Positions 822 through 43,216 of a stretch of 64,000 nt of DNA are shown in pieces. The DNA lies in contig JAIFKS010000007.1 of NCBI GenBank assembly GCA_020049465.1, forward strand, positions 62,001 through 126,000, written 5' to 3'. The notes beneath the pieces were generated by a model. That model was not told where the DNA came from. It searched no databases and saw nothing but the letters and a program-made list of their open reading frames with translations. A program made the translations under genes and the position numbers. The number at the start of each line of letters is the position of its first letter. Position 1 is the stretch's first letter. This DNA is from a bacterium. Lineage in GTDB: Bacteria; Krumholzibacteriota; Krumholzibacteriia; LZORAL124-64-63.

Positions 822-847
822 GCCAACCGCCCTTTCGAGGCCCCACG

Positions 848-2620: not shown

Positions 2621-2683
2621 GGACGGTTCCTTTCTCAATCGGGCCCGGCGCCGGTGGCCGCGCGAACATTCCGTCTGTCGCTG

Positions 2684-6152: not shown

Positions 6153-6233
6153 GCGCGGCAAGCCTTTCACAGCGTGGGAACCGCATCCGGCCCCCCGCAG
6201 GGGTCCGCAACGCCAAGACGGCTGATTGGCTTG

Positions 6234-15773: not shown

Positions 15774-18296
15774 TTGCCGCACCCGGCCGGCCATCGCCAG
15801 ACCCGCCTGGAACGCCTGTCCCGGAGCGCGGCGCTGCTCATGCTGGCCCCCTTGCTGCTGGCTCTGTCCCTGCCGCAGGCTTTCCACATCGTCCGGCGCG
15901 CCGACTACGGCTTCTCCACCCTGGATCTGCGAGTGCTCCGCGTCGAAGCGAACGGCCCCGCCGACCACGCCGGAGTGCGGGCCGAGGACCGGATCATCGC
16001 CGTGGATGGCCAGCCGGTCCCTCGCATGCTGGAATACTACGCCGCCACCGCCGGTCGGTACCGGCTCGAGCCCCTGACCCTCCAACTGCGTCGAGGCGAT
16101 GCGTCGCTCGTCGCATCTCTGACGCCTGTACCGCCGTCGCAGGCGCAGATGATCACGCAGTACACGCAATGGGTCAGCGGACTCGCTTTCCTGCTCATCG
16201 GCTGGTGGGTCTATGCCCGTCGCGCCGATCCGGTGGCCCGGAACTTCTTCGCGATGTGCTTCATCTTCGCCTTCTTCCTCATCGACATCCCCGACGTGGG
16301 CCGCCTCGACATCGTCAACGTCAAGTACCACCTGCGCACGCTGCTGCAACTGCTGCTCCCGGCGTATGTGCTGCGCTTCTTCCTCCAGTTCCCCGCGCCC
16401 TGGCGCCCGGGTGCCGACGGCCGGTCGCGTCTGCGGTGGCTGATGGCGCCGGCCTGGATCCTGTTCGCGCTGGCGACCGTCACCGAGGCCGTACGCGGCC
16501 AGCGTCCCGCCGGCGGCCTCGAAGCCGCGATCCAGACCGTTTCCCTGGTCTACATGCTGGCCTGCTTCCTGATCGGACTCGTGCACTTCGCGCGGGGCGC
16601 GCTGCGCCGCGACCGGCCGATCCGGCGCACAAAGATGCTGGTCATCCTGGTCGGCCTGACCGCCGGTCTGGTGCCGTTCCTGGTAACGATGGCCCTGGGC
16701 AACCTGGTTCCCGGCACCAGCGTGCCCCACCTGCACTACCTGGGACTTTCGCTCCTGCTGGTTCCGGCCAGTTTCGCACTGGCCATCATGCGCTACGGCG
16801 CACTGGACACCGCGTTCGTGGTGCGGATCGGCCTGATCTACGGCGCGCTCACGGCGCTGGTGGTCTTCGGCTATCTCCTGGTCACGGTCGCCGTGGGGAC
16901 GTTCCTGTCCACGCAGTTCGCGGTCGACTCCTCCTACGTCCTGGTTCTGCTGGTGGCAGCCACGGCACTGGTCGTGGCGCCGCTTCGGCAACGCGTCCAG
17001 CGGCTGGTCGATCTCGCGTTCTACCCCTCGCGGCGCGCCAACCGCGATGCGATCGCGCGCCTGGCCGACCGCCTCACGGGACTGATCGAAACGGAAGCCG
17101 TCCTGGAGCACCTGGGCCAGTCGCTGGGCGAACTCTTCCGCCCGCGCACCTTCGCGATCGTACTGGCCGTACCGGCGCCGGCACGCGGCTTCGTGCTCCG
17201 CGCAGCCTGGCCGTTGCCACCCGGGTCCGCCGGGCTGCCGATCCAGCACCTGCCGCCGGACGATGTCCTGACGAGCCTGCTCGATCGCGAACGGCGGCCG
17301 GTCTTCTGCGAGGAGCTCCAGGATTTCAACCCCTTCGAAAGCACCGAAGAACCCTCCTGGCAGCTGCTGCACCAGCTCCAGGCATCGCTGCTCGTGCCCC
17401 TGGTGTCGGGCAACCGCCTGCTCGGCTTCTTCGCGTTCGGACCCAAGAGCGGCGGGCAACTCTACGGTCAGGAGGACGTGGCCAACCTGCAGGCCCTGGC
17501 GGTGCAGGCGGGACCCGTCGTCGAGAGCCGTCAGCTCTACGAAGAACGGTTGCGCGGCAAACGGCTGGAGACGGAACTGGCCGTCGCGCGCGGGATCCAG
17601 TCCAACCTGCTGCCGGTGGCGCCACTCGTCACGCCGGAGTGCACGATCTGCGGCCTCAACGAACCGTGCCGCACGGTCGGCGGAGACTACTACGACTACT
17701 TCACGATGGAAGAGGGGCGGCTGGCGCTGGCCATCGGCGACGTGTCCGGCAAGGGCATCCCTGCGGCCCTCATGATGAGCTCGCTGCGCGTGGCCTTCCG
17801 CCTGGCTGTCGAGCAGGGCGTCTCGCCCCGCGAGGTCGTCGTCCGTATGAACCCGGTCGTCGCCTCCCTGGTCGGTCCCAGCCACTTCATCTGCTTCTTC
17901 TACGGCGTCTGGGAGCCGGCCAGCGGGCTTCTGCGCTACTGCAATGCGGGGATGGATCCGCCGGTGCTCCTGAGGCGCGAAGCCCCGCATCGGCAATACC
18001 TGCGCAAAGGCGGTCCCGTTCTCGGCGTGGAACCGGATTTCGCCTACCGAGAAGGGGTCGTCGCGCTGGCACCGGGCGATCGCTTGTTCCTCTATACGGA
18101 CGGCCTGACCGAACAACGGGACCCGCAGGGCGAGTTCTTCGATGCCGAGAGGCTCATCGACCTGGTCGAACACGATGCGGCCGGTGATCCCGCGGACGTC
18201 CTGGGACGCGTTTTTGCCACTGTCAATGCTTTCGGCCACCACCATCGTTCCGATGACCAAACCGCTATGATCATGCAAATCAATGAGTTGAGGTGA
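15774..18296 (+). CDS. PDZ-polytopic membrane-GAF-SpoIIE (PP2C) serine phosphatase
   Basis: 840 residues. An N-terminal hydrophobic helix leads into a PDZ-like domain (GPADHAGVRAEDRIIAVDG, about 60-80) presumably outside the membrane. About nine membrane helices follow between residues 130 and 400, then a cytoplasmic GAF domain (about 440-560) and a C-terminal SpoIIE/RsbU-type PP2C domain. The latter shows CRTVGGDYYDYF, ALAIGDVSGKGIPAALMM and LYTDGLTEQRDPQGEFF, including metal-binding aspartates. RsbU-type phosphatases dephosphorylate anti-anti-sigma factors to control alternative sigma factors. No anti-sigma partner is adjacent, so the target is unknown. TTG start with GGAG 8 bases upstream. 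Confidence 0.88.
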   Translation: MPHPAGHRQTRLERLSRSAALLMLAPLLLALSLPQAFHIVRRADYGFSTLDLRVLRVEANGPADHAGVRAEDRIIAVDGQPVPRMLEYYAATAGRYRLEPLTLQLRRGDASLVASLTPVPPSQAQMITQYTQWVSGLAFLLIGWWVYARRADPVARNFFAMCFIFAFFLIDIPDVGRLDIVNVKYHLRTLLQLLLPAYVLRFFLQFPAPWRPGADGRSRLRWLMAPAWILFALATVTEAVRGQRPAGGLEAAIQTVSLVYMLACFLIGLVHFARGALRRDRPIRRTKMLVILVGLTAGLVPFLVTMALGNLVPGTSVPHLHYLGLSLLLVPASFALAIMRYGALDTAFVVRIGLIYGALTALVVFGYLLVTVAVGTFLSTQFAVDSSYVLVLLVAATALVVAPLRQRVQRLVDLAFYPSRRANRDAIARLADRLTGLIETEAVLEHLGQSLGELFRPRTFAIVLAVPAPARGFVLRAAWPLPPGSAGLPIQHLPPDDVLTSLLDRERRPVFCEELQDFNPFESTEEPSWQLLHQLQASLLVPLVSGNRLLGFFAFGPKSGGQLYGQEDVANLQALAVQAGPVVESRQLYEERLRGKRLETELAVARGIQSNLLPVAPLVTPECTICGLNEPCRTVGGDYYDYFTMEEGRLALAIGDVSGKGIPAALMMSSLRVAFRLAVEQGVSPREVVVRMNPVVASLVGPSHFICFFYGVWEPASGLLRYCNAGMDPPVLLRREAPHRQYLRKGGPVLGVEPDFAYREGVVALAPGDRLFLYTDGLTEQRDPQGEFFDAERLIDLVEHDAAGDPADVLGRVFATVNAFGHHHRSDDQTAMIMQINELR

Positions 18297-29027: not shown

Positions 29028-29215
29028 GAGGCAAACCTCCTGAAAAAGCGGGCACCTGCCGGCGCCGGCGGACCATTCGGACGTAAAGTCGGGTCCCATT
29101 CCGTCGAAGATGGGGATGCCCGCAGATGATCATGCCGGACGCGCCGATCCGCAACCAGCGGGAATCGACAGCCGGTGAACAGCGGAACGCCTGGCGCGTT
29201 CCCGCGGAGGGTCCA

Positions 29216-29602
29216 GTGAGCCACGCCGTCCTGATCGTCGATGACGCTGAATTCATGCGCGCCATGCTGCGCGAGATCGTCCAGGACCTGGGCTGGTCGG
29301 TTGCCGGCGAAGCGGGCGACGGCGCCGAGGCCGTCGAGCTCCACGCCGTGCTGCAACCGGATCTTGTGCTGCTGGACATCACCATGCCCACCATGGACGG
29401 CAACGAGGCGCTGGCCGCGATCCTGGCCCGCGACCCCCAGGCCAAAGTCGTCATGATTACGGCGCTGGGACAAAAGGAGCAGGTGCTGGCGGCCATCAAG
29501 CTCGGCGCCCGCGATTTCATCATCAAGCCCTTCGACGCCGAGCGCGTCGCCGCCACGCTGACGCGTCTGCTGAGCGCCACGGAACCCGTCGGCGCGGCCT
29601 GA
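29216..29602 (+). CDS. Single-domain response regulator (CheY-like)
   Basis: 128 residues, a lone receiver domain: acidic pair Asp9-Asp10 (VLIVDDAEFMR), phospho-acceptor Asp54 in LVLLDITMPTMDG, Thr in VMITALG and Lys in FIIKPFD. No output domain, so it acts by protein-protein contact as CheY or a relay protein does. GTG 29216 is preceded by GGAGG six bases away; the open frame upstream lacks a ribosome site. The partner kinase could be the hybrid CheA at the left end, or a kinase outside the window. Confidence 0.93.
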   Translation: MSHAVLIVDDAEFMRAMLREIVQDLGWSVAGEAGDGAEAVELHAVLQPDLVLLDITMPTMDGNEALAAILARDPQAKVVMITALGQKEQVLAAIKLGARDFIIKPFDAERVAATLTRLLSATEPVGAA

Positions 29603-29644
29603 CCGGCACCATCCCTGACATTCGGAAGTCGGACGGAAGAGCGC

Positions 29645-30520
29645 TCAGGCGCTCCCGCGCTGCTCGCGGGCGGCGCGGGCCTGACTGTAATGCAGGCGGG
29701 CCTCCTGGGGCATGCCCAGGGCGTCGCAGGTCAGGGCCAGCTGGTAGTGCAGCCGGCCGTCTTCGGGTGTGAATTCAAGCGCCTGTTCGAGCGAGAGCCG
29801 GGCCTCTTCGTAGCGCTGGAGCTTGTGCAGACACGTCCCCAGATAGAAGGGCACGCGCACCAGACGGGGGTCCAGCCTCCAGGCCGCTTCGAACCGCCGG
29901 CAGGCGTCGGCGTACATCCCGCACTTCATCTGGCACAGGGCGGCGTAGTACTGGCCCCGCATGAATCCCGCATCGCAGGCAAGGGCGCGCTCGAAACACT
30001 CCAGGGCGCGGGTGTACTCGGAAGCGCCGTAGTGGACCAGACCAAGGTTGTGGTAACCCTCGGCGTCCGGTTCGATCGCGATGGCCGACTCGAAAGCCCG
30101 GATCGCCTCCTGCGAACGCCCGGCTTCGGCGTAGATGGCCCCAAGATTGTGGTAGGCGACCGCGCTGCCGCTGCCCTTCTGCGTCGATCGCTTGTACCAG
30201 AGAACCGCCTCGTCGCGCCGTCCCTGCCGGTCGCAGCAGACACCGAGGTTGGTCAGGTAGGCCGCCGCATCGGGCTGGAGTTCGACCGCCCGCCGCAGGG
30301 CCAGTTCCGCCTCGCCCGGCAGATCCAGCTTCAACAGCACGCAGCCCAGCCGGTACAGCCAGTCGTGCCGGCCGGCATCCAACTCCAGGGCCAGTTCATA
30401 GGCGCGCCGCGCCTCGTCGAGATGCCCGGCATTCTCTGCCTGGCGCCCATTCTCGAAGAGCGCGGCTCCGGCCGGGATCTCGTTGCCCTGGGGCATGCTG
30501 TCGTTATCACGGGGTGTCAT
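29645..30520 (-). CDS. Cytoplasmic tetratricopeptide repeat protein
   Basis: 291 residues made of about seven TPR units (for example LDEARRAYELALELDAG, YLTNLGVCCDRQGRRDEAVLWYK, AYHNLGAIYAEAGRSQEAIRAFE, and YHNLGLVHYGASEYTRALECFE). No signal peptide or membrane helix. TPR proteins are scaffolds. ATG 30520 has no ribosome site but sits 8 bases after a -10 element, so the mRNA appears leaderless. It follows the MglA-like gene in the same direction with an 82-base gap and its own promoter. Role unknown; context suggests the MglA-like module. Confidence 0.8.
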   Translation of the reverse strand: MTPRDNDSMPQGNEIPAGAALFENGRQAENAGHLDEARRAYELALELDAGRHDWLYRLGCVLLKLDLPGEAELALRRAVELQPDAAAYLTNLGVCCDRQGRRDEAVLWYKRSTQKGSGSAVAYHNLGAIYAEAGRSQEAIRAFESAIAIEPDAEGYHNLGLVHYGASEYTRALECFERALACDAGFMRGQYYAALCQMKCGMYADACRRFEAAWRLDPRLVRVPFYLGTCLHKLQRYEEARLSLEQALEFTPEDGRLHYQLALTCDALGMPQEARLHYSQARAAREQRGSA

Positions 30521-30527
30521 GGGCGGG

Positions 30528-30556
30528 AATCTAGCGGCACGGCGCGCTGAGGTCAA
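30528..30556 (-). promoter_or_regulatory. Sigma-70-type promoter giving a leaderless TPR mRNA
   Basis: TTGACC, 17 bases, TAGATT on the minus strand. The -10 ends 7 bases before the ATG at 30520, so transcription would begin at or next to the start codon. Confidence 0.65.
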
Positions 30557-30602
30557 TTGCCTTCGCGCCGGGAGGAATTCCGGATGGACGGGATCCCGCG
30601 GA

Positions 30603-31445
30603 TCAGAGCGGGGAGTCGTCGTCGATCTCGACTTCCAGCAGCAGACGGACCGGCGTCGAGCCTTCCAGCAAACGTCGCGGAATGCGCACCGGAACGATGA
30701 CGGTCGGCCTCAGTTCATGGTAGATCGCGTCGCTCAAGGCCCGTGTGCTGGCCCCGAACTCCGAACCCGGCAGGGGCGGTCCGTAATCCAGTCCGAGCGG
30801 GCTGGAAGGTTCCTTCCGCGCGGGCGCCGGCCGTTCCGGGGCCGCCGGCGGCGGCGGCGCCGAAGCCAGGGCGGCGGCGGCAGGGTTCGAAGCCAGGTGA
30901 TTGACCGTCAACCCGAGAATCGCCTTCAACGTCTCCCGGGCCCCGTCGCCGTTGGCGGCGTTGGCCGGAAACGACAGAAGTCCCCAGGGATTGAGCAGGC
31001 TCTCGAGGCGATCGACCGGCAGCGTGTCGGGCCGGTCGCGGCGGTTGTACTGGATGACGATCGGAATCCGCATCAGATCCAGATCCCACGACTCCAGGAA
31101 CGTCTTCAGCGATTCGAGGGCCGCCAGACTCTGGTCCAGCATCGCCGCGGACGAATCGACGACGAACACGACCCCGTCGAACGGTGGCCGCGGATCCCGT
31201 CCCGCCGAATGCAAACGCTCACGGCCCGCATCGACGGCCTGCACGAGCACCTGCCAGTCGCCCTGCGCCCCGTGCCGCACCCGGAACGCGATCTGCCGTT
31301 CCGGATCGTCGGTGGCCAGCGTCAGGCGCTGTTCCGGCGGGATCGATCGATGGATCACCCGCAGGTTGGCCCGCTTGCCGGCGCTGGCGGGCCCGTAATA
31401 GAGCACGCGGCATGTCCGGGTTGCTGTCAGCTGGGAGGTGCCCAC
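30603..31445 (-). CDS. MglA-like small GTPase homologue with degenerate nucleotide-binding motifs
   Basis: 280 residues. Residues 1 to about 190 follow the MglA/Arf-like fold: VLYYGPASAGKRANL (P-loop), FDGVVFVVDSS, LDLMRIPIVIQYNRRD (G4). In MglA these read roughly GPGLxGKTTNL and QYNKRD; here the Mg-binding Thr is Arg and the G4 Lys is Arg, and the G3 segment (VQAVDAGRERL) lacks the usual Pro-Gly. A Pro/Ala-rich linker and a C-terminal tail of about 60 residues follow. GTG 31445 has AAGGA 8 bases upstream. MglA sets cell polarity and drives motility in Myxococcus; here binding without hydrolysis is possible. Confidence 0.78.
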   Translation of the reverse strand: MGTSQLTATRTCRVLYYGPASAGKRANLRVIHRSIPPEQRLTLATDDPERQIAFRVRHGAQGDWQVLVQAVDAGRERLHSAGRDPRPPFDGVVFVVDSSAAMLDQSLAALESLKTFLESWDLDLMRIPIVIQYNRRDRPDTLPVDRLESLLNPWGLLSFPANAANGDGARETLKAILGLTVNHLASNPAAAALASAPPPPAAPERPAPARKEPSSPLGLDYGPPLPGSEFGASTRALSDAIYHELRPTVIVPVRIPRRLLEGSTPVRLLLEVEIDDDSPL

Positions 31446-31549
31446 GGCTTCCGTCCTTGCTCGTCGCCGGCTCAAGTCACCCACAAGCCGCCCGCTCGGG
31501 CGTGCGTGCGGTCATCGACCAGTTCCAAGCAAGGGATGTGCCACGAAAC

Positions 31550-31567
31550 GACAAGCATCTTCTTGTC
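31550..31567. promoter_or_regulatory. Inverted repeat, candidate enhancer site for a sigma-54 activator
   Basis: GACAAG-CATCTT-CTTGTC, a perfect 6-base inverted repeat with outer partial symmetry (AAC/ATT), about 34 bases upstream of the -24 element of the sigma-54 promoter at 31601. Confidence 0.45.
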
Positions 31568-31600
31568 ATTTCATCAGATCACGAGGCCTTGCGGGGAACA

Positions 31601-31615
31601 GGCAAGCATTTTGCA
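31601..31615 (+). promoter_or_regulatory. Sigma-54 (-24/-12) promoter
   Basis: GGCAA-GCATT-TTGCA: GG and GC separated by exactly 10 bases, TTGCA perfect, GGCA perfect. Predicted start near 31626, 73 bases before the ATG at 31699. Confidence 0.7.
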
Positions 31616-31698
31616 ACATCGCGGGGAAAGAACAGGGCAGTCCGGCACACCGACCGCCCCTTCCAGAGCGCGCAGAAACCACCGGGCGGGAGTCCTCC

Positions 31699-32139
31699 AT
31701 GACCACGAACACCGACAAGATCCTCAAGACCATGTTCGCGCGCCTGTTGCAGGTGGAGATCGAGGAGCCGTTGCTGCAAAAGCTGTGTGCGGTGATCGAC
31801 AGCGTCACCGAACGGGTGGGCGGCAATTTCGACCTGGAGACCGTCCAGGGCCAGAACACCTTCCGGGCACTGCTTTGCTCCATGGTGGTCCACGGCTGGG
31901 GCAACGGGATGCACCCCTACCACAATCCCCCGTCCAACCAGGACGGCAATCCGGTCGAGGTGCGCGTCAGCAAGGACATCCTGATGTCGATGCTCGACCT
32001 GCAGGCCCTGCGCTATGTCAAAAAGGACGCGCAGGGACGCGTCAAGCAGGCGCTGTTCGAACCGGATCACAATGCACGGGTGCGGCAGCAGATCGACGAT
32101 ATCCTGGCGGAAATCAGCCACGACAAGTGGAGTTCCTAG
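31699..32139 (+). CDS. Hypothetical cytoplasmic protein under sigma-54-type control
   Basis: 146 residues, no signal peptide, helical pattern, with a central MHPYHNPPSNQDGNP loop rich in Asn/Pro/His. I do not recognise a family. ATG 31699 follows GGGAG at seven bases. It is divergent from the MglA-like gene and precedes, on the opposite strand, the zinc-ribbon gene. The sigma-54-type promoter and upstream inverted repeat imply activator-dependent expression. The GTPase and zinc-ribbon neighbours suggest, but do not show, a shared process. Confidence 0.75.
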   Translation: MTTNTDKILKTMFARLLQVEIEEPLLQKLCAVIDSVTERVGGNFDLETVQGQNTFRALLCSMVVHGWGNGMHPYHNPPSNQDGNPVEVRVSKDILMSMLDLQALRYVKKDAQGRVKQALFEPDHNARVRQQIDDILAEISHDKWSS

Positions 32140-32212
32140 GCAGGGGCCGCCGTACTGCCGAATTCCGCGCCCCTCTCCCGGCCCGGTGCCGGCTCCGCAG
32201 TCCGAAACGAAA

Positions 32213-32245
32213 AACCGGCCGCGTCCCACGGGAACGCGGCCGGTT
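32213..32245 (-). terminator. Rho-independent terminator of the zinc-ribbon gene
   Basis: Arms AACCGGCCGCGT / ACGCGGCCGGTT (12 base pairs) followed on the minus strand by TTTTTCGTTT. It lies 21 bases past the zinc-ribbon stop and can also stop the convergent plus-strand gene. Confidence 0.85.
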
Positions 32246-32266
32246 GCGCATGGGCGGCGGCGGCGC

Positions 32267-32824
32267 CTAGAAGACGTTGCGGCCTTCGGCGAGGATCTCG
32301 TTCAGGGCATCCCGGAAGTACTCCGTGGATCCGGCCACCTCGGGCGTGACCTTTTCCTTGTACAGTTCCCAGGACTTCTTGATCTCCGGCCCCAGTGCGT
32401 CCAGCAAGTTGCCTTCGGCCAGGGCACGCTCGTAGACCTCGCGATTGTAGACCTTGATGTCGGAAACCAGCGCGCGCGCCAGCATCTCTTCCTTGCTGCG
32501 GCGGCGACGCGCGGCCGCCGGCTGGTCCATGACCGCGGTGCCGGCCGGAGCAGCCGAACGGACCACTTCGGCGGCGGGCGCACGGGTGGCGGCCGGCGCC
32601 GGCTGGTACCGCGGAGCGGACGGCATGGTATGCGTCGGCGTGGGCTCGGGGCGCGCGGGTTGACGGGTCTCGGCAACGGGAGCGACCGACTCCTCGGTGC
32701 GGGAAGTGCCATCCAGAACGAACACGCCCCGACATGCCGGGCAACGGACGCGGATCTTGCGGTGGGGAACACGGTCGGACTCCAACCGGTACCGCGCCTG
32801 GCAATCGGTGCACGTGGTGATCAT
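32267..32824 (-). CDS. MJ0042-type zinc-ribbon protein with conserved C-terminal helical domain
   Basis: 185 residues. The N-terminus is the MJ0042/zinc-ribbon fold: CTDC at 5-8, ARYRLESDRVP, and CPAC near 28 followed by GVFVL, giving four Cys ligands. A Pro/Ala/Thr-rich flexible linker (about 45-100) leads to RRRR and a helical C-terminal domain (LVSDIKVYNREVYERAL ... EIKKSWELYKEKV ... FRDALNEILAEG). ATG 32824 has AGGAG seven bases upstream. In Myxococcus the gliding protein GltJ uses a similar zinc ribbon to bind MglA; given the MglA-like neighbour a comparable contact is possible but unproven. Confidence 0.82.
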   Translation of the reverse strand: MITTCTDCQARYRLESDRVPHRKIRVRCPACRGVFVLDGTSRTEESVAPVAETRQPARPEPTPTHTMPSAPRYQPAPAATRAPAAEVVRSAAPAGTAVMDQPAAARRRRSKEEMLARALVSDIKVYNREVYERALAEGNLLDALGPEIKKSWELYKEKVTPEVAGSTEYFRDALNEILAEGRNVF

Positions 32825-32978
32825 GAACCCGCTCCTTTGGGTGGCTGAGAACCCATCACGATGCACGGTAGGTTTCGGCCGCGGGCGGCGGGCATTTAGC
32901 GGAGATTCGGCGGGAGCCGCGACGCCCGGCCGTCGCCGGCCCCGGAAGGCAGGGCACGCGACCGGCAGACGCCGGAAT

Positions 32979-33950
32979 TCAGGGTCGGTAGACCAGGTCC
33001 GTCACCAGGCGACCGACCTGGCCCAGGGTTGCCGCCGAGCACCTGTCCGGGGTGTCCCCGCTGGTGTGCCACTGCGGGTAGTCGAAGTCGATCAGGTCGA
33101 CCGCCGGGACGCCTGCGAGCAGGAACGGCACGTGGTCATCGTAGACCTGGCGGCCGGGCACCGCCTCGAAAACGGTCAGGCCCAGATCGGCGGCCCGCGC
33201 AAAGACGGCAGCCGTCCAGGCCGGGGCCAGTTCCAGCGAATAGCCCTCCTGCGGGATGCGGGCCCCGGCCTCGCCCACCATGTCCAGCAGGATCAGGCCC
33301 CGGGGGGTACCGGCCGAGAGCGGATGGCCGAAGTCGCCCATGGTGCCCACCAGATGCCGGCTGCCCAGGCAGAAGCCGGCCGCATCGTGCGCCTGGCCCG
33401 AATCCTCGGCGTCGAAGAACAGCAGATCGACGCCCTGCGGCGGCGGCGAGGAGCCGAACAGTTCGATCAGATGCAACAGCACGGCTGTTCCGCTGCCGCC
33501 GTCATTGGCTCCGGCGATCGGCAAATTCCGGCGACCAGGCGAGGCATCGCGGTCGGCCCAGGGTCGCGTGTCGAAATGCGCGCCCAGCCACAGGCGCTCG
33601 CCACCCGGCGGCCCTGCCGACACGACGATGTTGCAGGCTTCGATCGGCGTTCCGTCGGGGCCCAGCGGCACCTGGAAGCACAGAGGGATCGCCTGCAGCC
33701 CGGCGCCTTCGGCGGCCTTCATGATCATGCGGCGTACCGCAGCATTGCCGGACGATCCCGGCGTCCGGGGTCCCAGCGCACACTGTTCAACAATCAGTTC
33801 CAGCGCGCGCTCACCGGAGAAAGCGGGAATCGCGCCGGCCTCCACCGGAGCGGCCGCGAGCACCGTCCCGCCCGCCAGCAGGAACAACGTCACCGGAAGT
33901 GCCCGGAGCCGAAAGGGCCGGAGCCCCAACCCGATCCGACTAGAAGACAA
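32979..33950 (-). CDS. Exported M28-family zinc peptidase (or glutaminyl cyclase-like)
   Basis: 323 residues. Signal-like N-terminus (LRALPVTLFLLAGGTVLAAA). Zinc ligands as in M28: GAHFDTRPW (His, Asp), GANDGGSGTA (Asp), FFDAEDSG (Glu-Asp), LDMVG and a final PQWHTSGDTPD (His). The family holds aminopeptidases and glutaminyl cyclases; the W/H pattern near the end fits the latter too. Start chosen as TTG 33950 because GGAGG lies six bases upstream. It overlaps the sprA stop by 11 bases, so translation is coupled and the enzyme may act on surface or secreted proteins. Confidence 0.85.
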   Translation of the reverse strand: MSSSRIGLGLRPFRLRALPVTLFLLAGGTVLAAAPVEAGAIPAFSGERALELIVEQCALGPRTPGSSGNAAVRRMIMKAAEGAGLQAIPLCFQVPLGPDGTPIEACNIVVSAGPPGGERLWLGAHFDTRPWADRDASPGRRNLPIAGANDGGSGTAVLLHLIELFGSSPPPQGVDLLFFDAEDSGQAHDAAGFCLGSRHLVGTMGDFGHPLSAGTPRGLILLDMVGEAGARIPQEGYSLELAPAWTAAVFARAADLGLTVFEAVPGRQVYDDHVPFLLAGVPAVDLIDFDYPQWHTSGDTPDRCSAATLGQVGRLVTDLVYRP

Positions 33951-36900
33951 AGGTGGCCTCCACTCCCAGCCCGAGCGTCGTGCCGGTCTGACCGGTGGCG
34001 ATATTGCTCGTGTGGGCGAACTTGAAACGGAGCGCCCCGCTGAGGTTCCGCGAAATCTGGTAGGAAAAGCGGGGATCCACGCTGATCCGCTTGGTTCCGG
34101 TCGGCGCCGTGGCGGCCGACCCGGGATTGCTGCGGTCGGTGCGGTCGGAAGTGTAGGAAAGGTCGACGTCCATGCTGACATTCTGGCTGGCGCCCGGCTT
34201 GTAGAGGCCCAGTTTCGCCAGGAACTTCTCGGCCCGGAACTGATGCCGCACCTGGAGTCCGTACCGGCTCTGCGTGGTCTTGGTCGTGACGCCGTTGCCC
34301 TTGACGTCGTCCCACTTCAGGTTCGCGTTGAGATTCGCTGTCAGGCCGCTCGGGAAGGTGAACGACCAGCGCGGCTGCAGGGCCGTCGTCAACGTCGGGT
34401 TGTAGACGGTGGCCGTGAAGTTGTTGACGATAAGTCCATGCTTGTAGCCGACGTTGATGCTCGACGCGCGGAACCAACCTTCGCCTTCCTTGCGGCCGCC
34501 ACCCAGAACGCGCCACTTCTCGATGCCCGTCAACGATACCTGGACGTCCGGCCAGTCCTCACGACGGCTGCGCGACTCAGAGCCCACCTGCTCACGCCAG
34601 GAGTCGGACTTCGAGTACTTGAGATCCAGCGAGATCTGGCGCGTCAGCTTCGACGTGGTCGACAACGAAATCGATTCCTGACGATCCAGGGAACTGGCCG
34701 AATAGCGGGACGGGTCGGAGTCGATGTCGCTCGTGAAGCCGGCCTGGTACCAGAATGAAGCTGTATCCAGCAGGCGCGCATAGCTGCTCTGGGTGCGGGT
34801 GGTCATCGTCAGCTTCAGCGGCGTCGTGTTGCGCAGGACCGAAATGAACGGCTCGAACAACGTCCGAGGCCCGAAGCCTGGACCACCTTCGGCCGCGGGT
34901 TCGACGCTGGCAGGGGGCGCCACACCCAGGCGCTGCTGCTCTTCCAGTTCCAGCGCCAGGCGCTCCTCGGCCGCCTCGAGCAGCCGCTCATCTTCACGGC
35001 GCTGCCGTTCCTCGGGCGTCAGGAGTTCACCGTCGTCCGACGGCGTCGGCAGATCCGGCGGGACGATGGTCCCGGTCCCGGTGCTGTCGACGGGGGCAGG
35101 CGCCGGGCCGCCGGCGGGAGGCGTCACCGGCGTATCTCCCGGCTGACGCCGGGCATCGCGCCCCTCGAGTCGCCTCTGGGAAGCCAGCAACTGCTCCCGC
35201 TGTCCCGCGCTGTACTGGCGTTCAGGGAAGACGGCCTTCACCATCTCGCCGATCGGCAGCCCCAGACGCAGATCCCAGCTCGCCGAATTGCTGATGCTCC
35301 GGATGTTCTCCGGGTCGCCTGATTGCCTGAGAGCCGGGTCGTGCACGTCACCGAACCCGCCGCTGTACTGGAGCGAAGGGTTTATCCGGTCCAGCCCGCG
35401 CAGGGCCAACCGCACCGGCGCGAAGATCATGCCGGCGGGAATCTTCGCACCCTTGGGCGTCGAGAACGTGATGCGCAGATCGTAGGTTCGCCGGTTCTCC
35501 TGCCCGATGTTCACGCCGCCGACGTACTTCTCCCGCAGCAGATCGCGGTCCGACGTGGCGCCGAACGCCATGTCCATCACCGGCAACGGAGCATAGTCGA
35601 ACGCCCCCGTCAGCTTGCCGATCCTCTTGCGATCCACCGGCCGCGCCGTCACGAGGCCGGATTCGGCGATCGTCGTCAGGGCGCCTTCGGTCGAACTGAA
35701 GCTGGCTCCGAGCGCGATCTTTCGAGGGACGAGCGACAGGCTCCGGACCAGCGGGATCCGCCCGATGATCGGGTAGGAGGCCAGCTTGTAGGCGCCGGCG
35801 ATGCGCAGGTCGTAGTTCAGGCCGCCCTGCAGGCTCTTGCTTCGGCTTCGCTGGAGTGGTCCCTGGGTCGATTCCTGGGAGCCGTTCAATTGCACGGACC
35901 ACGGATCGACGAGGTAACGCAAGAGTACGGCCTTGGCCGGCGTGTGATTGAGGCGCGCCGAGAACTGCTCACGGGTGGCCACGGTCGACATTTCGCCGAG
36001 CATGTCCGGGTCGATGATCTCGATGTCGCTGTTGGTGACGTATTTCGGCCGGTCGATCGTCTGCCGGCGGCTGCCGCTCACCGGCAGGCGGAAACCGGCC
36101 AGTGGCACGAAATCCTCGATGTTCAGGCTGTTCTGGACGCTCCACTCCTCGTGGTCGATGCCGCTCCCTGCACGCTTGTCCAGACCGTGGAATTCGTCGT
36201 CGTTGTGCTTCCAGTCGAAGTCCACCTTGAACACGTCCGCCATGTTCAGGCGCAGACCGGCTCGTTGGGCCATGCCGAAGTCGCGTTTGACGCCTTCCAG
36301 ACGCACATCGTTGATGTAGAGATAGCCTGTCGCCGGCTCCGTCAGCGCATTGTTGGCCACGCCCAGATAGTAGCGACGCACGCGGCGCAGATCCGGTCGT
36401 CCGACCACGCGCACCCTGTACTCGTCGCCCGTATCCAGATCGTTGATCGTGGCACGCACGCTGCCGTCGTCGGCCAGTTCCCCGTTCTTCACGTTCGACA
36501 ACTCAGCCAGTCCGACCGACATGCGGTGCCAGCCCACCTTGGCGTCGCCCTCGCTGAACCGGTAGGCGACTTCGTAGTAGTTCAGCGAATCGGCGCCGAC
36601 CCGGAACAGGAGATCCAGGTCTGCCGTGTCGTGCGACGGGTTGAACCAGTACCAGGACATGTTCCGATATCCCGTATAGTCGTCGCCGCGGGGGGAAACC
36701 TGCTTGCTGACGCGCAGCAGATGCCCGCGCTCGAGGTCCTGGAAGTTCAGGACCAGCGACTGTTCCTTGTCCGGGATGTTGTTCTCGATGTGCACGGCGA
36801 AGGGCGGCGCATAGTCGGGGTTCTCCTTGTTGTTGACTTCGCCCAGGAAGAAAGCCTCGTCCGGCAGGCGTTCGCCCGGACTCAGAAGCTGCTCGCCCTC

Positions 36901-39900
36901 GGCGCGGCGGACGCCCTCGCGCTCCCAGCGACTGCCGAGGAAACGCAGTTCTGAGAGCTGCAGATGGACCGTCGAGGGAGCGCCCGTCGCCTCGTTCTCG
37001 TACCAGATGCGCGCATGGGTGACGGCCTTGATGTTGGCCGAACCGCCGGCCGACACCGAGTCGACGGCCGCGAGGGGGATGCGGTACTTGCGCCAGGCAA
37101 TCCTGCCGTCGACCAGATCCTGGACGTTGTCATAGTCATACACGACATCCACCAGCGGCGTGGTTTCCTTCAGGTCGATCGTGACCGTGAAGTAGCCGTC
37201 GATCTGGTCGAGCCGACCGTTCGCGTTCAGGTCCTCGGTGTCCTCGCGGTTGTTGCGCGCCGTCTTGTTGATGCGGGGGAAAGGAGAGTCCCCCTCGTAC
37301 TCGAGATCGGCCTTGTAGTGGTTCGATTCCGAGTCGTCGCCTTCCAGGCCGATGTCCTCGTCGTAGATCCAGACGCCGTCCGGCGTGCCGCTGAGGATCC
37401 CGTCCTCCTGCTCGAACCTTCCGATCGTCAAGTCGCCCACAGCGTCCTCTGGCCAGAAGCCGTCCTCGTTGATGTAGCCGAAATCGATATGGAGCCGGCC
37501 CGAACGGAGATCAGCCTCCGGCACCCGATCGTTGACCCAGACCTCGACGAACTGCGATTTCGACAGGTCCAGACCGGTGCGACTGATGCCCCGCATGATG
37601 CCGCCCCAGTTCTCGGGGGACCACAAGCCGTCGGTGCGCAGGTACAGATCCATGGCCGTCTGCGTCTCGTCGCGTTCCTGGTTGACCAGATCGGGGTTCA
37701 GATAACGCCTCAGCACGCGGTCGTTCGGCAGGAACCACCGCAGTGTCTCGACGCGGTTCTGCGGCGAAAAAGCGCGGGAATCCGGGTTGTTCAGCAGATA
37801 GCCCTCGCCGAGTTTCGGCGCGCTCGCCCACGACCAGCCCAGCCGGTTCAGTGTGACCATGTCCGAGGCGTCGACGCCCTCGAAGTCCTCCAGGTAGACC
37901 TGGCCCTTGGTGTTGGGGTTCGGAAGGCTGAGCGCCAGTTCGCCCGAGAACTGGACCGAACTCTCGCGCTCGGAGTCGTTGCGGCTGAGAAAGTTGGCCA
38001 CCTTGGTCAGGAACGTCGGCTTGAAGGTGTGCTGCAGGTTCATGTTGCCGACCAGGTTCTTGCTCGGCTCCTCTCCCAGCTTGGCCTTTTCGCCGACGAT
38101 CGACTCGCTCTGGTACAGCCAGGTCGTGGCCAGTTTGCTGTCGCGCCCCAGGTCGTAGCCCAGGCTGAATCCCGTCAGGCTGGTGTTGCCGCCGCCCAGG
38201 AACGGGGCGTACTGGTAATCGACGGCGATCTTGCTGTCGGCGGTCAGGTTCGCCGCTTCGCCCTTGAGCTGGATCTCGCCGAAGGTGTAGTCGATCTCGT
38301 AGTCCACGTCCCGGGCGAGCGTCCGGCCGTCGAGGGTGACGACTTCCGAACCCTCCTCGATGTTCGAGGCGCCCAGGTTGAAGTTGCTGCTGGCGGCGGC
38401 GTGCCTGGCGACGATGCGGAAGCGCGCGTACTGCGCGTACTCGCTCGGCAGCACCTTCGGGTCGTAGAGTTTCGGGGCGAGATTCCCGGCCAGGAACGAA
38501 TTGTCCCAGACGAAGGCGGTGGTGTCCGCGTAGGCTACGTACTGGGCCTGTTCGCCGTTGAACGGCTGCGGGAAGTCGAGCGGGAATTTCAGCAACCCCT
38601 TGGTGAGATCGAACAGCAGTTCGTCGTCGGCGTCGACCAGGCCGTCGGGCCGGTTGCCGCCCTGGGCGCTGCGGCGGTCGAGCCCGAAGATCCGGACATA
38701 GACGAGTCCGCTGTCGTCCTGCGCCGGCTGCAGCGAGTTGTCGATGCGCTCGATTCTCAGCTCGAACGTCGTCGGGTCGATGTTGGCGCCACCGAGGGAG
38801 TAGATGTTCCGCAGCACGTATTTGAACACGTGCGAATGCGTCCTCGTGGAGACGGCCTTCAGGAGCTTCATCCGGTAGAACTTCCCGTCCACCCCCGGCA
38901 GGTCCTGCACGGGGGTGGGATCCACATCGGGATTGTCGCCGACCGTGCCCACCGCCTCTCCCGCCGCGTTCTCCACGGTGTAGACGACCGCCAGGACGTC
39001 GGAGTCATCCATGCGGGTGCGCATGTCGATGGCGACGAGGCCGCCGGCGGAGTCCAGGATCGGATCGAACGAAGTGACTTCGCGCCAGCGCGGGCCGTAG
39101 TCGTGCGGCTCCGTGAAATCCATGCCGCCCGCGTTCCAGGCGCGGTAGCCGAGCGAGTCGACGTACACCGCCACGTTCGCGATGTCACCGGGCTGGAACT
39201 GGCCCGAGGGCATGATCTGGAAGATCTTCACCGAACTGTACCGGATGCGCTCGCCCGGAACCCGGCCGGACAGTTCATCGTTCGGCAGGTCCAGCTGGAA
39301 GAAACGGTTGTTCAGGTAGTCCGACGACAGGATGATGTTGTCGGAAACCTGACCGCCCTTCGCGTTGAACGATTTGGAACTGGACTCGGCCTTCTGCTTG
39401 GAGGCCACGACCGTGAAGTCGGCGCGCCCGACCTGGCCGGTCACCTTGATGCCGAACAGACCGGACTTGTTCGAACTGTAGCCCAGCAGCTGGCTGCCGG
39501 GGAGGGTCAGGCCGACGTCGCCGGTCTCGATCGTCTTGATGATCTCGTCCTCGAGACCCCGGTACATCAGCTTGATCTTGGTCGCCTCGGGACCCAGCTG
39601 CTCGCTGTTGTGGTCCACCTCGAGGATGATCTTCTCGCCGATCGTGCCCGACAGGTTGATCTGCAGCTGCTGCTCCATGTCCAGGGTCGGGAACAGCGAC
39701 TGGCTCGAAACGCGCTCGTTGGCGATGAAGGGCTTGTTCACCGTGCTCTCGCCGCTGAGGGCGATGTGCTCGCGGCCGGTGATCTTGATGCGGGTCTTCT
39801 CGCCCTTGCCGATGATCTTTTCCAGGGTCCGCGGCAGCTTTACCGGGATCGTCAGGTTGATCAGGCTCGTTTCCTGCGTCTTCTTGCCGCCGCCGGTCAG

Positions 39901-40416
39901 GTCCAGCGCGTCGGTCCTGGTCAGCACCGCACCCACCGCATGGCGCCGGGCCATGGCCACGTCGATTTCGTCGACGAAGAGCTCGACCGAAGGGTCGCCC
40001 AGCGGACGCGGCGGGTACCAGGTGAAGCCCCCCGGCAACGGTTCGGCATTCGTCAGCAGGATGAAGAATTTCGGGTGCGAGATCTCCGTCACCACGCGCA
40101 GGGGACCGTTGTACTCCAGCAGCTTCTCGCGGCGCTCGAGATCGACGTTCGCCCGCTGATCCCACTGGCGGCGCAACGTGGTCGACAGGTCCGGGCGCCG
40201 GCCCGGCATGCGCAGCGGGTCCACGCCCTGGCGCAGGAGCCGCTCGCGCATGACGAGCCTGTCCGCCCCCAACAGGCGCGGGTCGGACGTGGTTTTCAGC
40301 AGCGGATCAAGACCGTACAGGGGCGGCCCATAAGCAGGGTCGGCGGCGGCTGGCAGCGCCGCGCCGCCGAGCAGGAGCGCCAGGAGGACGGATCGGATGA
40401 CGGCACGAAAACCCAC
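33940..40416 (-). CDS. sprA: SprA homologue, giant outer-membrane protein of the type IX secretion translocon
   Basis: 2158 residues, close to the Flavobacterium protein of about 2400. GTG 40416 (GGGGAGG nine bases upstream) begins a signal peptide (VIRSVLLALLLGGAALPAAA). SprA-family landmarks include ITGREHIALSGES, EVDHNSEQLGPEATKIKLMY, TGDVGLTLPGSQLLGYSSNKSGLFG, GQVYLEDFEGVDASD and SWYWFNPSHD, then many amphipathic strands and a C-terminal aromatic (VEATFVF). A Pro/Glu-rich spacer (around residues 1750-1850) interrupts the barrel. In Bacteroidota SprA is the 36-strand channel for T9SS cargo and is required for gliding. No other T9SS gene is in the window. Confidence 0.92.
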   Translation of the reverse strand: MGFRAVIRSVLLALLLGGAALPAAADPAYGPPLYGLDPLLKTTSDPRLLGADRLVMRERLLRQGVDPLRMPGRRPDLSTTLRRQWDQRANVDLERREKLLEYNGPLRVVTEISHPKFFILLTNAEPLPGGFTWYPPRPLGDPSVELFVDEIDVAMARRHAVGAVLTRTDALDLTGGGKKTQETSLINLTIPVKLPRTLEKIIGKGEKTRIKITGREHIALSGESTVNKPFIANERVSSQSLFPTLDMEQQLQINLSGTIGEKIILEVDHNSEQLGPEATKIKLMYRGLEDEIIKTIETGDVGLTLPGSQLLGYSSNKSGLFGIKVTGQVGRADFTVVASKQKAESSSKSFNAKGGQVSDNIILSSDYLNNRFFQLDLPNDELSGRVPGERIRYSSVKIFQIMPSGQFQPGDIANVAVYVDSLGYRAWNAGGMDFTEPHDYGPRWREVTSFDPILDSAGGLVAIDMRTRMDDSDVLAVVYTVENAAGEAVGTVGDNPDVDPTPVQDLPGVDGKFYRMKLLKAVSTRTHSHVFKYVLRNIYSLGGANIDPTTFELRIERIDNSLQPAQDDSGLVYVRIFGLDRRSAQGGNRPDGLVDADDELLFDLTKGLLKFPLDFPQPFNGEQAQYVAYADTTAFVWDNSFLAGNLAPKLYDPKVLPSEYAQYARFRIVARHAAASSNFNLGASNIEEGSEVVTLDGRTLARDVDYEIDYTFGEIQLKGEAANLTADSKIAVDYQYAPFLGGGNTSLTGFSLGYDLGRDSKLATTWLYQSESIVGEKAKLGEEPSKNLVGNMNLQHTFKPTFLTKVANFLSRNDSERESSVQFSGELALSLPNPNTKGQVYLEDFEGVDASDMVTLNRLGWSWASAPKLGEGYLLNNPDSRAFSPQNRVETLRWFLPNDRVLRRYLNPDLVNQERDETQTAMDLYLRTDGLWSPENWGGIMRGISRTGLDLSKSQFVEVWVNDRVPEADLRSGRLHIDFGYINEDGFWPEDAVGDLTIGRFEQEDGILSGTPDGVWIYDEDIGLEGDDSESNHYKADLEYEGDSPFPRINKTARNNREDTEDLNANGRLDQIDGYFTVTIDLKETTPLVDVVYDYDNVQDLVDGRIAWRKYRIPLAAVDSVSAGGSANIKAVTHARIWYENEATGAPSTVHLQLSELRFLGSRWEREGVRRAEGEQLLSPGERLPDEAFFLGEVNNKENPDYAPPFAVHIENNIPDKEQSLVLNFQDLERGHLLRVSKQVSPRGDDYTGYRNMSWYWFNPSHDTADLDLLFRVGADSLNYYEVAYRFSEGDAKVGWHRMSVGLAELSNVKNGELADDGSVRATINDLDTGDEYRVRVVGRPDLRRVRRYYLGVANNALTEPATGYLYINDVRLEGVKRDFGMAQRAGLRLNMADVFKVDFDWKHNDDEFHGLDKRAGSGIDHEEWSVQNSLNIEDFVPLAGFRLPVSGSRRQTIDRPKYVTNSDIEIIDPDMLGEMSTVATREQFSARLNHTPAKAVLLRYLVDPWSVQLNGSQESTQGPLQRSRSKSLQGGLNYDLRIAGAYKLASYPIIGRIPLVRSLSLVPRKIALGASFSSTEGALTTIAESGLVTARPVDRKRIGKLTGAFDYAPLPVMDMAFGATSDRDLLREKYVGGVNIGQENRRTYDLRITFSTPKGAKIPAGMIFAPVRLALRGLDRINPSLQYSGGFGDVHDPALRQSGDPENIRSISNSASWDLRLGLPIGEMVKAVFPERQYSAGQREQLLASQRRLEGRDARRQPGDTPVTPPAGGPAPAPVDSTGTGTIVPPDLPTPSDDGELLTPEERQRREDERLLEAAEERLALELEEQQRLGVAPPASVEPAAEGGPGFGPRTLFEPFISVLRNTTPLKLTMTTRTQSSYARLLDTASFWYQAGFTSDIDSDPSRYSASSLDRQESISLSTTSKLTRQISLDLKYSKSDSWREQVGSESRSRREDWPDVQVSLTGIEKWRVLGGGRKEGEGWFRASSINVGYKHGLIVNNFTATVYNPTLTTALQPRWSFTFPSGLTANLNANLKWDDVKGNGVTTKTTQSRYGLQVRHQFRAEKFLAKLGLYKPGASQNVSMDVDLSYTSDRTDRSNPGSAATAPTGTKRISVDPRFSYQISRNLSGALRFKFAHTSNIATGQTGTTLGLGVEATFVF

Positions 40417-40733
40417 GGCGGGGAACCTCCCCTGCCGGCACGGGTTTCCGGGCCTGCCATACGACCGGGACAAAACGGGGAAACTCCTTGCTGGGGCGGG
40501 GCTGGCCGCCGAAATACTGCTGGTCCGGACGGCATTCGTCTACGAAAATGGTCAGGTTGTGCCCGGTTGGCGTCCAGCGCGCCGAATCCGGCTCGGGCGG
40601 CCAGCCGCCGCGCCCGGGTCCGCCGCCGTTCAGGAACCTGATCGCCCGGCCCCGGCAACGGTTCCGACCAACGGGCCGACTACGCGCGCACGGCGCCATC
40701 CGGGCGTGGCCCGTTCAAACCCGAAAGCCTCTA
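40417..40733. other. Divergent intergenic region between sprA and lptF
   Basis: 317 bases with no supported gene. A weaker sigma-54-like element on the plus strand (GGGGAA-ACTCC-TTGCT, 40477-40492) has correct GG-N10-GC geometry but lies 240 bases from lptF. A small palindrome TTCGTCTACGAA is near 40545. No convincing sigma-70 pair was found for either gene. Confidence 0.4.
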
Positions 40734-42143
40734 ATGCACTTGATTAACAGGCACTTGCTGACCGCGACCGCGGGACCATTCCTCTTCGGCTGGTTCGTCA
40801 TCACGTTCCTGCTGATGATAGATGTGCTGTTCCGGTACGTCGATCTGTTTGTCAGCAAGGGGGTCCCGTTCGTCCTGGCTACGCGTGTCCTGCTCCTGAG
40901 CCTGGGGCACACATTTGCATTATCCGTACCAATGGCGGTGCTGGTCGGGGTCCTGATGGGAGTCGGGCAACTCGCGGCCGATCATGAAATTACGGCAATG
41001 AAGGCCAGCGGCCTGAGCCTGTGGGCGCTGGCCCGCCCCCTGTTCGTGGCGGCCGCCCTGATCGCTGTCACGCAGACCGCCTACAACCACTACGTCTACC
41101 CGCGGTCGAACCATACGCTGGTGAATCTGCTGCAGGATATCGGGCGACAGAAACCGATGCTGGAGATCCGCGAGCAGCAGTTCACCGACCTTACCGACCG
41201 CCTGACCATCTTCGTGCGCACCAAGGACGACCTTACCGGTGTCATCGGCGACGTTTCCATTTTCGAGAAGGCGCAGCCCGGCGACGCGTCGCCCCGCTTG
41301 ACCATCGCCGAACGCGGCCGCATCGTGCCGGACCACACCAACAACCTGCTGCGGATCGAACTCGAAGACGGCGAGATCCACGAGGTGCCCGATCCCGAGG
41401 ACCCGGACACCTACCAATTGACCCGGTTCCGGCAACACAACATGGTGCTTGAGAACATGGAGCAGGACTTCCAGGTCTCTGAAAGGTCCGCGCGCGGGGA
41501 CCGTGAGATGGATCTCAAGGAGTTGGGAGCCGCCGCCGCCGTCGAACGCGGACACCAGGCCGACGTGCGGAGCCGCGTGCGTGAACTGTCAGCCACGGTC
41601 CTGGACGGCCAGTGGCGCGTCCTGGATCCGACCGGAAGGGGCGAGATCGTGGACAGCGCCACCGGCTCGGACCGTTCCCGCGTCGAGGTGGCGGACAGTT
41701 TCTTCCGCTCGACGCGCCAGCTCGTCGAACGCGCGCTGGAGCAGGATCGCTACCAGTCCAGGCTGCTGGAGAGCTACCGCGTCAAGGAGAACAAGTACCG
41801 CGTGGAGTACCAGAAGAAGTTCGCCATCCCTGTGGCCTGCATCGTGTTCGTGCTCCTGGGCGTGCCGATGGCGGTGGCCGGCTCCCGCAGCGGCCGCGGC
41901 ATCAGCGTGAGTCTGGCGCTGGCCGTCTACCTGATCTACTACGCGTTCCTCATGGGCGGAGAAAAGCTGGCCGATCGCGGGCGGCTGGACCCGGTGGTCG
42001 CGATGTGGGCCGCCAACGTGGTTCTGACGGCGATCGGCATCCCGTTGTTCGCGCGCACCGTGCGCGAAGGCAGCCTGCCCGACCTGTCGAGCTTCTTCAA
42101 GCGGCGCGGCGCGCGCGCGTCGGCTCCGACCGGGGCGGCGTGA
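40734..42143 (+). CDS. lptF: LptF/LptG family permease, LPS export ABC transporter (LptF)
   Basis: 469 residues. YjgP/YjgQ topology: three membrane helices at the N-terminus (FGWFVITFLLMIDVLFRYVD, about 17-120), a large periplasmic beta-jellyroll domain (about 135-370, longer than usual with a charged insert RSARGDREMDLKELG) and three C-terminal helices (IPVACIVFVLLGVPMAVAGS and following). With LptG it forms the inner-membrane channel that extracts LPS, powered by LptB. ATG 40734 lacks a clear ribosome site; an open frame continues upstream without a better start. Its stop overlaps lptG (TGATG). Confidence 0.88.
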   Translation: MHLINRHLLTATAGPFLFGWFVITFLLMIDVLFRYVDLFVSKGVPFVLATRVLLLSLGHTFALSVPMAVLVGVLMGVGQLAADHEITAMKASGLSLWALARPLFVAAALIAVTQTAYNHYVYPRSNHTLVNLLQDIGRQKPMLEIREQQFTDLTDRLTIFVRTKDDLTGVIGDVSIFEKAQPGDASPRLTIAERGRIVPDHTNNLLRIELEDGEIHEVPDPEDPDTYQLTRFRQHNMVLENMEQDFQVSERSARGDREMDLKELGAAAAVERGHQADVRSRVRELSATVLDGQWRVLDPTGRGEIVDSATGSDRSRVEVADSFFRSTRQLVERALEQDRYQSRLLESYRVKENKYRVEYQKKFAIPVACIVFVLLGVPMAVAGSRSGRGISVSLALAVYLIYYAFLMGGEKLADRGRLDPVVAMWAANVVLTAIGIPLFARTVREGSLPDLSSFFKRRGARASAPTGAA

Positions 42144-43216
42144 TGACCATCATCCACCGGCTGCTGCTGCGGACGTTTCTGCGCTATCTCCTCTACGCGC
42201 TGGTGGGCGCGCTCATCCTGTTCACGCTGGTGGACCTGCTCGAGCACATGGGGAGTCTGGTCGACAACAATGCCACCACCGACGAAGTCCTGCGCTACTA
42301 CCTGTACAAGGCTGCCTGGATCATCGATATCGTGCTGCCGATCGCCATGCTCATGGCGACACTGTTTTCGGTGGGCCAGATGGCGCGCTACCTGGAGCTG
42401 ACGGCCCTGTTCGCCGCCGGTTGGTCGCTGCTGAAGGTGACCCGTCCCCTGGTCGTCCTGGCGGTCGTCGTCTCGCTGCTGTCGTTGTCCTGGCGCGAAT
42501 TCGTCCTGCCGAAGGCGAACATCAACCGCGAGCGCGTCTGGGAAGTCGACATCCACGGGCGTCCCGAGACGATCCGCCCCACGCAGAACATCGCCCTGAC
42601 CGGGCCGGACGGACGCCTGTACTACGCCCGCCGGTACGACCCGGCCACCAGCCAGTTGACGGGACTGAAGATCGTCTCGCGGCAGGGTTCACGCGTGACC
42701 GAACGCGTGGACGCGGCGAGAGCCGAATGGGACGGCTCCCACTGGACCCTGATCGACGGCACCCGGCGCGTCTTCGACGACGAGGCCGAGCGGCTGACCA
42801 CATTCGAGCGGCTGACCGCCGAGGACCTGACGATCGAACCGCGCGGCTTCGAACGGGACCGTGTGGCCCAGGAGGACATGAACATCCGGCAACTGCGGGA
42901 GCACGTTGCGCTGGTGCGGCAGACCGGCGGGGATCCGCGTTCGGCCGAAGTGGACCTGCAGTTCAATCTGGCCTTCCCGCTGGTCAACCTCATCGTGGTC
43001 CTGATGGGCCTGGTCCTGGCTTCGGGACCCCGCAAGACAACCGTCGCCTCCGGATTCGGTCTGACCATCGCGGTCAGTTTCGGCTACTACCTGTTCATGA
43101 ACTTCGGGCGGGCGCTCGGACATGCGGGCGCGGTGCCGCCGGTACCGGCCGCCTGGTCCGGCAACGTGTTCTACGGCCTGATCTTCGCCGGCCTGTTCAT
43201 CCGGGCCCGGCGCTGA
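42143..43216 (+). CDS. lptG: LptF/LptG family permease, LPS export ABC transporter (LptG)
   Basis: 357 residues, normal for LptG. Three N-terminal helices (YALVGALILFTLVDLLEHMG and IIDIVLPIAMLMATLFSVGQM), periplasmic domain (about 110-265) and three C-terminal helices (LAFPLVNLIVVLMGLVLASG and onward). The pair order F then G is the canonical one. ATG 42143 overlaps the last base of the lptF stop, so translation is coupled. LptB and LptC are encoded at 54-55.6 kb on the opposite strand. Confidence 0.88.
   Translation: MTIIHRLLLRTFLRYLLYALVGALILFTLVDLLEHMGSLVDNNATTDEVLRYYLYKAAWIIDIVLPIAMLMATLFSVGQMARYLELTALFAAGWSLLKVTRPLVVLAVVVSLLSLSWREFVLPKANINRERVWEVDIHGRPETIRPTQNIALTGPDGRLYYARRYDPATSQLTGLKIVSRQGSRVTERVDAARAEWDGSHWTLIDGTRRVFDDEAERLTTFERLTAEDLTIEPRGFERDRVAQEDMNIRQLREHVALVRQTGGDPRSAEVDLQFNLAFPLVNLIVVLMGLVLASGPRKTTVASGFGLTIAVSFGYYLFMNFGRALGHAGAVPPVPAAWSGNVFYGLIFAGLFIRARR

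Follow-up and report, generated by a model that had tools for sequence, protein, structure and literature searches.

A phylum-wide MglA-type polarity cassette, with a predicted switch-dead GTPase in one clade and an apparently later junction to a SprA block

The gene cluster described here has at its core a cell-polarity cassette found throughout its bacterial phylum, in which an MglA paralogue (MglA2) appears to have become switch-dead in one clade of a single family and to which a block carrying sprA was joined later; we give this reading a probability of about 0.6. Genes for a zinc-ribbon–RomX fusion protein, for MglA2 with a conserved tail, for a TPR protein and for a 146-amino-acid (146-aa) protein are linked across the phylum, and homology identifies the cassette as the MglA polarity module in a variant that is well conserved. 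The cluster lies in a window of 64,000 nucleotides (67% G+C), the whole stretch of DNA analysed, from a 3.9-Mb genome that is 94% complete. It was compared across 80 genomes of the phylum covering one class and eight families (f1–f8, f1 being the window's own), a sample in which absence from a fragmented genome is not proof.

An earlier, sequence-only reading had listed a receiver, a TPR protein, an MglA-like GTPase, an MJ0042 zinc ribbon, an M28 peptidase and SprA, and each was confirmed by a domain, profile or structure match within 29126–40473 (Table 1). That reading did not include the RomX domain of the zinc-ribbon protein or the conserved plus-strand gene at 31699–32139. The cluster is not a single operon, because the receiver and the 31699 gene lie on the opposite strand and the zinc-ribbon gene is followed by a strong hairpin resembling a terminator.

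Table 1 Features of the cluster, in window coordinates
Feature	Position	Strand	Evidence
Single CheY-like receiver	29126–29602	+	Response_reg 3e-29
TPR protein	29645–30556	−	TPR_2 3e-40
Predicted pseudo-GTPase, MglA family	ORF 30603–31484; likely GTG start about 31445 (alignment)	−	Sequence and fold
146-aa protein	31699–32139	+	Conservation; zero family matches
Terminator-like hairpin, 15 pairs, 3′ of the zinc-ribbon–RomX gene	32213–32245	−	Pattern scan only
Zinc-ribbon–RomX fusion	ORF 32267–32866; conserved start Met15, about 32824	−	Zn_ribbon_4 7e-11; 8zna; 7zok
Zinc ribbon of the fusion protein	about 32720–32824	−	
RomX domain of the fusion protein	about 32285–32497	−	
M28 peptidase	32979 to about 33940; ORF 32979–34181 overlaps the sprA end, start uncertain	−	Peptidase_M28 5e-27
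SprA/Sov	33940–40473	−	TIGR04189 502 bits
lptF and lptG, divergent from sprA	40488–43216	+	LptF_LptG 3e-83 for lptF

Gene order within the cassette is conserved in f1, and the same order recurs in f2–f8 with MglA2 as the syntenic gene. Outside f1 the block runs from recG through (HD), zinc-ribbon–romX, HATPase_c_2 and the convergent 146-aa gene and, further on, to MglA2, (receiver) and the TPR gene, beyond which lie (Wzi-like), (UbiA), (UppP) and valS; the presence of the genes in brackets varies. The HATPase_c_2 gene, which is RsbW-like and separates romX from the 146-aa gene in those families (L048:3537–4364, L047:14332–15231 and L039:11471–12292), is missing from the f1 cassette. Among the most conserved genes of this neighbourhood is that of the 146-aa protein, which has 50 invariant columns across 20 sequences and a dN/dS of about 0.06. 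It lies beside the zinc-ribbon gene in 71 of the 80 genomes, convergent with that gene and divergent from the GTPase gene. Searches of its product against Pfam, NCBIfam, PHROG and PDB returned zero matches, and its AF2 model is poor (pLDDT 55).

A gap of 47 bases separates the GTPase gene from the TPR gene, which lies downstream of MglA2 in other families too, and the TPR protein is probably a co-transcribed partner of the GTPase. In Myxococcus, the TPR protein SgmX is an effector of MglA-GTP, which recruits it for pilus assembly at a pole (PMC7519303). The position of the window's receiver is conserved in f1. It shares 27–28% identity with the receivers that neighbour MglA2 outside f1, a value on which we set aside its equation with the receiver that intervenes there between MglA2 and the TPR gene, and its membership in the cassette is uncertain.

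By profile comparison, the zinc-ribbon protein is a clear RomX homologue in its C-terminal half. A profile of 22 orthologues matches the solved RomX chain 8zna with an E value of 3.7e-14, and the window's single sequence matches it at 6.4e-9, with 24 of 71 residues identical. Across f1 and four outside sequences, 28 residues of the domain are invariant; 26 of these are comparable with 8zna, and 17 of the 26 are identical. The protein is not a stand-alone RomX: a Pro/Ala-rich linker joins the domain to an N-terminal zinc ribbon of the MJ0042 type (TIGR02098, 7.6e-8), the four cysteines of which are invariant among the orthologues compared and which, in the 22-orthologue profile, matches that of 7zok, a gliding protein (E value of 1.7e-6). 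Pfam and NCBIfam searches of the 199-aa protein detected no GYF or gliding-complex domain beyond the zinc ribbon. The zinc ribbon of GltJ binds MglA, and we know of no description of RomX-type regulation in this phylum. RomX of M. xanthus binds MglA and stimulates nucleotide exchange, acting together with RomR, which enhances this activity (PMC9481161).

No Pfam family scores above cut-off in the MglA-like GTPase of the cassette. By sequence it matches M. xanthus MglA (5ymx) at 1.5e-19, and the 14 best PDB matches of its predicted fold (pLDDT 84.5) are all MglA, the best at 3e-15. The protein comprises a G domain followed by a linker and a conserved tail. The sequence-only reading had called this GTPase degenerate, a description that the orthologues bear out. 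The P-loop motif GxxxxGK[ST] is lost through replacement of GKT by GKR in the window and in 23/23 f1 orthologues, and in switch I the same 23/23 carry Gln, Glu or His in place of Thr54; in switch II the glycine alone of TVPGQ is fixed, and the lysine of NKxD is mostly replaced (NRRD in the window). G..GK and Arg53 are still present, and GKR, DP before Arg53 and Pro in place of the G5-region Glu are replacements fixed clade-wide. Five intact MglA2 sequences aligned in full (from f2, f5, f6 and f8) hold GKT, the switch-I threonine, TVPGQ and NKxD, and they have the long linker and a tail, PV.IPR...L..R.LLE, in common with the f1 protein. Judged by these residues, the GTPase of the f1 clade is a pseudo-GTPase that has lost its switch; to our knowledge, no switch-dead MglA family has been described.

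The 23 f1 sequences form one clade (support 100/100), but its branch is very long and support for an MglA2 group in the tree is weak (55/96); the case for descent from MglA2 is therefore made by position and the common tail more than by the tree. A GTPase-based search of named genomes returned three near relatives and no more. The reading frame is open in all 23 sequences, and dN/dS is about 0.12 (0.09–0.19; 0.12–0.13 between the window and its genus mates), values that are approximate because dS is high and that point to maintenance under strong purifying selection.

The cassette GTPase is not the genome's ordinary MglA. Looking beyond the window for MglB, as the sequence-only reading had suggested, located it together with a second and intact MglA (MglA1), the two genes lying side by side elsewhere in the genome (C59:48028 and 48561), and an intact MglB–MglA1 pair is likewise encoded elsewhere in pseudo-GTPase genomes. 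In f1 genomes with a completeness of 90% or more and contamination no higher than 5%, the presence of MglB and that of the pseudo-GTPase agree except in G047, where MglB was not found, and in G067, a fragmented genome in which the whole cassette was not found. Four f1 genera, g2, g5, g9 and g14, are without both proteins. Elsewhere in their genomes, g2 and g14 encode a strongly divergent MglA-like protein that carries GK[ST] and TVPG or TTPG motifs (L071:9394–9990, minus strand; L072:9123–10199, plus strand). PilT-family ATPases occur in 77 of the 80 genomes, with matches at 1e-140 or below in most pseudo-GTPase genomes of f1 and at 4e-139 or weaker, or none, in g2, g5, g9 and g14; because these genera form one clade (90/85), the pilus association amounts to about one loss event and is not a statistical association. 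In f3, MglB is absent, PilT is kept and MglA2 is kept in three of four genomes.

The intact MglA1 and MglB of pseudo-GTPase genomes would also suit an arrangement in which the zinc-ribbon–RomX protein serves MglA1 only and the pseudo-GTPase is unrelated or inhibitory, for example a decoy titrating RomX or the TPR protein. Such an arrangement would fit the RomX-domain residues, which are invariant despite the lost nucleotide contacts of the neighbouring GTPase. We nevertheless regard it as unlikely, while granting it more weight than any other alternative, given that the pseudo-GTPase gene adjoins romX and the TPR gene in all sampled holders where the contig allows and that its product has the tail of intact MglA2.

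The window's SprA scores 502 bits against the TIGR04189 cut-off of 200 and matches the F. johnsoniae SprA structure at 1e-33, matches that mark it as a genuine SprA/Sov, the outer-membrane translocon of type IX secretion. A search for the remaining type IX genes, likewise suggested by the sequence-only reading, recovered, from the window's own genome, 10 matches to the PorV family, 6 to C25 and at least 62 to sorting domains. PorV, a C25 (PorU-type) peptidase and C-terminal sorting domains are present in 80/80 genomes, and type IX secretion is probably live in the genome of the window. The GldM motor model (TIGR03517) gave zero matches anywhere, controls included, in a search that was without a positive control. 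An M28 gene follows sprA in f1, f2, f5, f6 and f8. The pair sprA–M28 and the divergent lptF–lptG are kept together across families (window 33940–43216; L063–L068), an arrangement that hints at a link between M28 and SprA.

This block, lptG–lptF divergent from sprA–M28, occupies a locus separate from the cassette in f2, f5, f6 and f8 and in the f1 genera g2 and g3, and recG remains upstream of the cassette in g2, g3, g5 and g14. In f1 genera g1, g4, g7, g8, g10, g11 and g13, M28 is followed directly by romX; contigs of g6 are too short for the full junction, and the contig that carries SprA in g6 also holds a zinc-ribbon fragment. In a tree built from the 146-aa protein plus RpoD, holders of the pseudo-GTPase form a clade (95/95) in which g3 branches first and the SprA-linked genera form a nested clade (97/91). 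This distribution places the ancestral site of the SprA block at a locus apart from the cassette, and a single rearrangement inside f1, with the SprA block as the later arrival, explains the junction. The DNA through rpoD is also co-linear in the SprA-linked clade, so the fact that the junction has persisted is little guide to function.

Transcription may nevertheless cross the junction. The spacing between M28 and romX is 60–150 bases and in the window is without a terminator-like site, such that sprA–M28–romX may form one minus-strand transcription unit ended by the hairpin at 32245–32213. The GTPase and TPR genes would make up another transcription unit, which diverges from the 146-aa gene. 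With this layout, any transcriptional coupling of SprA is with romX and not with the GTPase, and since romX was ancestrally co-directional with recG, it appears to have swapped its upstream partner and not to belong to a designed unit.

The sequence-only reading had proposed one system, a machine in which SprA is placed or gated by the MglA-like protein, acting by way of the zinc ribbon and the TPR protein, so that secretion or gliding comes under spatial control. The closely spaced, co-directional sprA, M28 and romX of at least seven f1 genera, the lack of a terminator-like site between M28 and romX in the window and the probably live type IX secretion speak for it. Set against these are the separation of the blocks in families other than f1 and, within f1, in g2 and g3, the sufficiency of one rearrangement and the slow decay of gene order in this clade generally. 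SprA moreover persists in the four f1 genera without MglB and the MglA paralogue, the exception being G045 (75% complete), so that the comparison does not demonstrate a dedicated polarity–secretion machine. What stands of the proposal is the MglA-like, zinc-ribbon and TPR cassette, kept in relatives phylum-wide and strengthened by RomX homology; the membership of SprA is not supported. Comparative evidence does not support the SprA machine, which we consider improbable. Equally improbable is a switch-dead MglA that serves as a nucleotide-independent polar scaffold, bridging the RomX–zinc-ribbon and TPR proteins and also positioning SprA in the linked clade; if true, it would mean spatially controlled type IX secretion. 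Finally, that the GTPase gene is a decaying pseudogene is scarcely credible, for its lost nucleotide contacts and its absence from g2, g5, g9 and g14 are outweighed by the open frames, the dN/dS range and replacements that are clade-fixed and not random, selection and fixation both contradicting decay.

Under the favoured reading, a polarity cassette that the SprA block joined later, the zinc-ribbon–RomX protein of most families would, like Myxococcus RomX, bind MglA2, MglA1 or both and act as their adaptor and exchange factor. The TPR effector would then be recruited to a cell pole by MglA-GTP, in the way that SgmX is recruited by MglA, and the likeliest outcome would be the placement of type IV pili or another polar structure. 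In the window's clade, the non-switching MglA2 might act as a fixed scaffold for RomX and the TPR protein, with switching left to the intact MglB–MglA1 pair. SprA would serve as translocon in a type IX secretion system distinct from the cassette; no functional cause is needed for its position next to the cassette, although transcription shared with the romX gene may link the dosage of the two. Elsewhere in the window, a minus-strand chemosensory operon (1–6170) encodes CheA with a receiver, CheW, an MCP with a Tll0287-like sensor, and CheB; by analogy with Frz in Myxococcus, it is a possible input to polarity. A plus-strand gene at 15774–18296 encodes a membrane protein with PDZ, 7TM-like, GAF and SpoIIE phosphatase domains.

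Throughout the whole phylum, the fusion of a RomX homologue with a GltJ-like zinc ribbon is found beside an MglA paralogue. The natural series from intact MglA2 through a maintained pseudo-GTPase to complete loss asks what role MglA plays without its switch, and the SprA part illustrates how one rearrangement can yield a striking gene cluster.

The closest known counterpart is the Myxococcus xanthus MglA/MglB/RomR/RomX system with SgmX, which likewise combines an MglA-family protein, RomX and a TPR protein and has an MglB–MglA pair in the genome. The window differs in that its RomX is fused to a zinc ribbon, its TPR protein has 303 aa compared with 1,060 for SgmX, and the linked MglA paralogue of its clade is predicted to be switch-dead and does not lie beside mglB. 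With GltJ (AglX) of the Myxococcus gliding complex, the window protein has the MJ0042-type zinc ribbon in common (7zok), but its partner domain is RomX, and Pfam and NCBIfam detected no GYF or other GltJ domain. MglA-family proteins uncoupled from mglB are known in SofG of Myxococcus and MglA of Bdellovibrio (PMC4316618), and Bd2492, a TPR protein with a link to MglA in Bdellovibrio, is homologous to SgmX (PMC7519303); unlike SofG and Bdellovibrio MglA, which are not reported to be switch-dead, the window protein is without GTP-site residues. Compared with SprA/Sov of Bacteroidota, the window's SprA is a full-length member by TIGR04189, encoded in a genome that also holds PorV, C25 and sorting-domain cargo.
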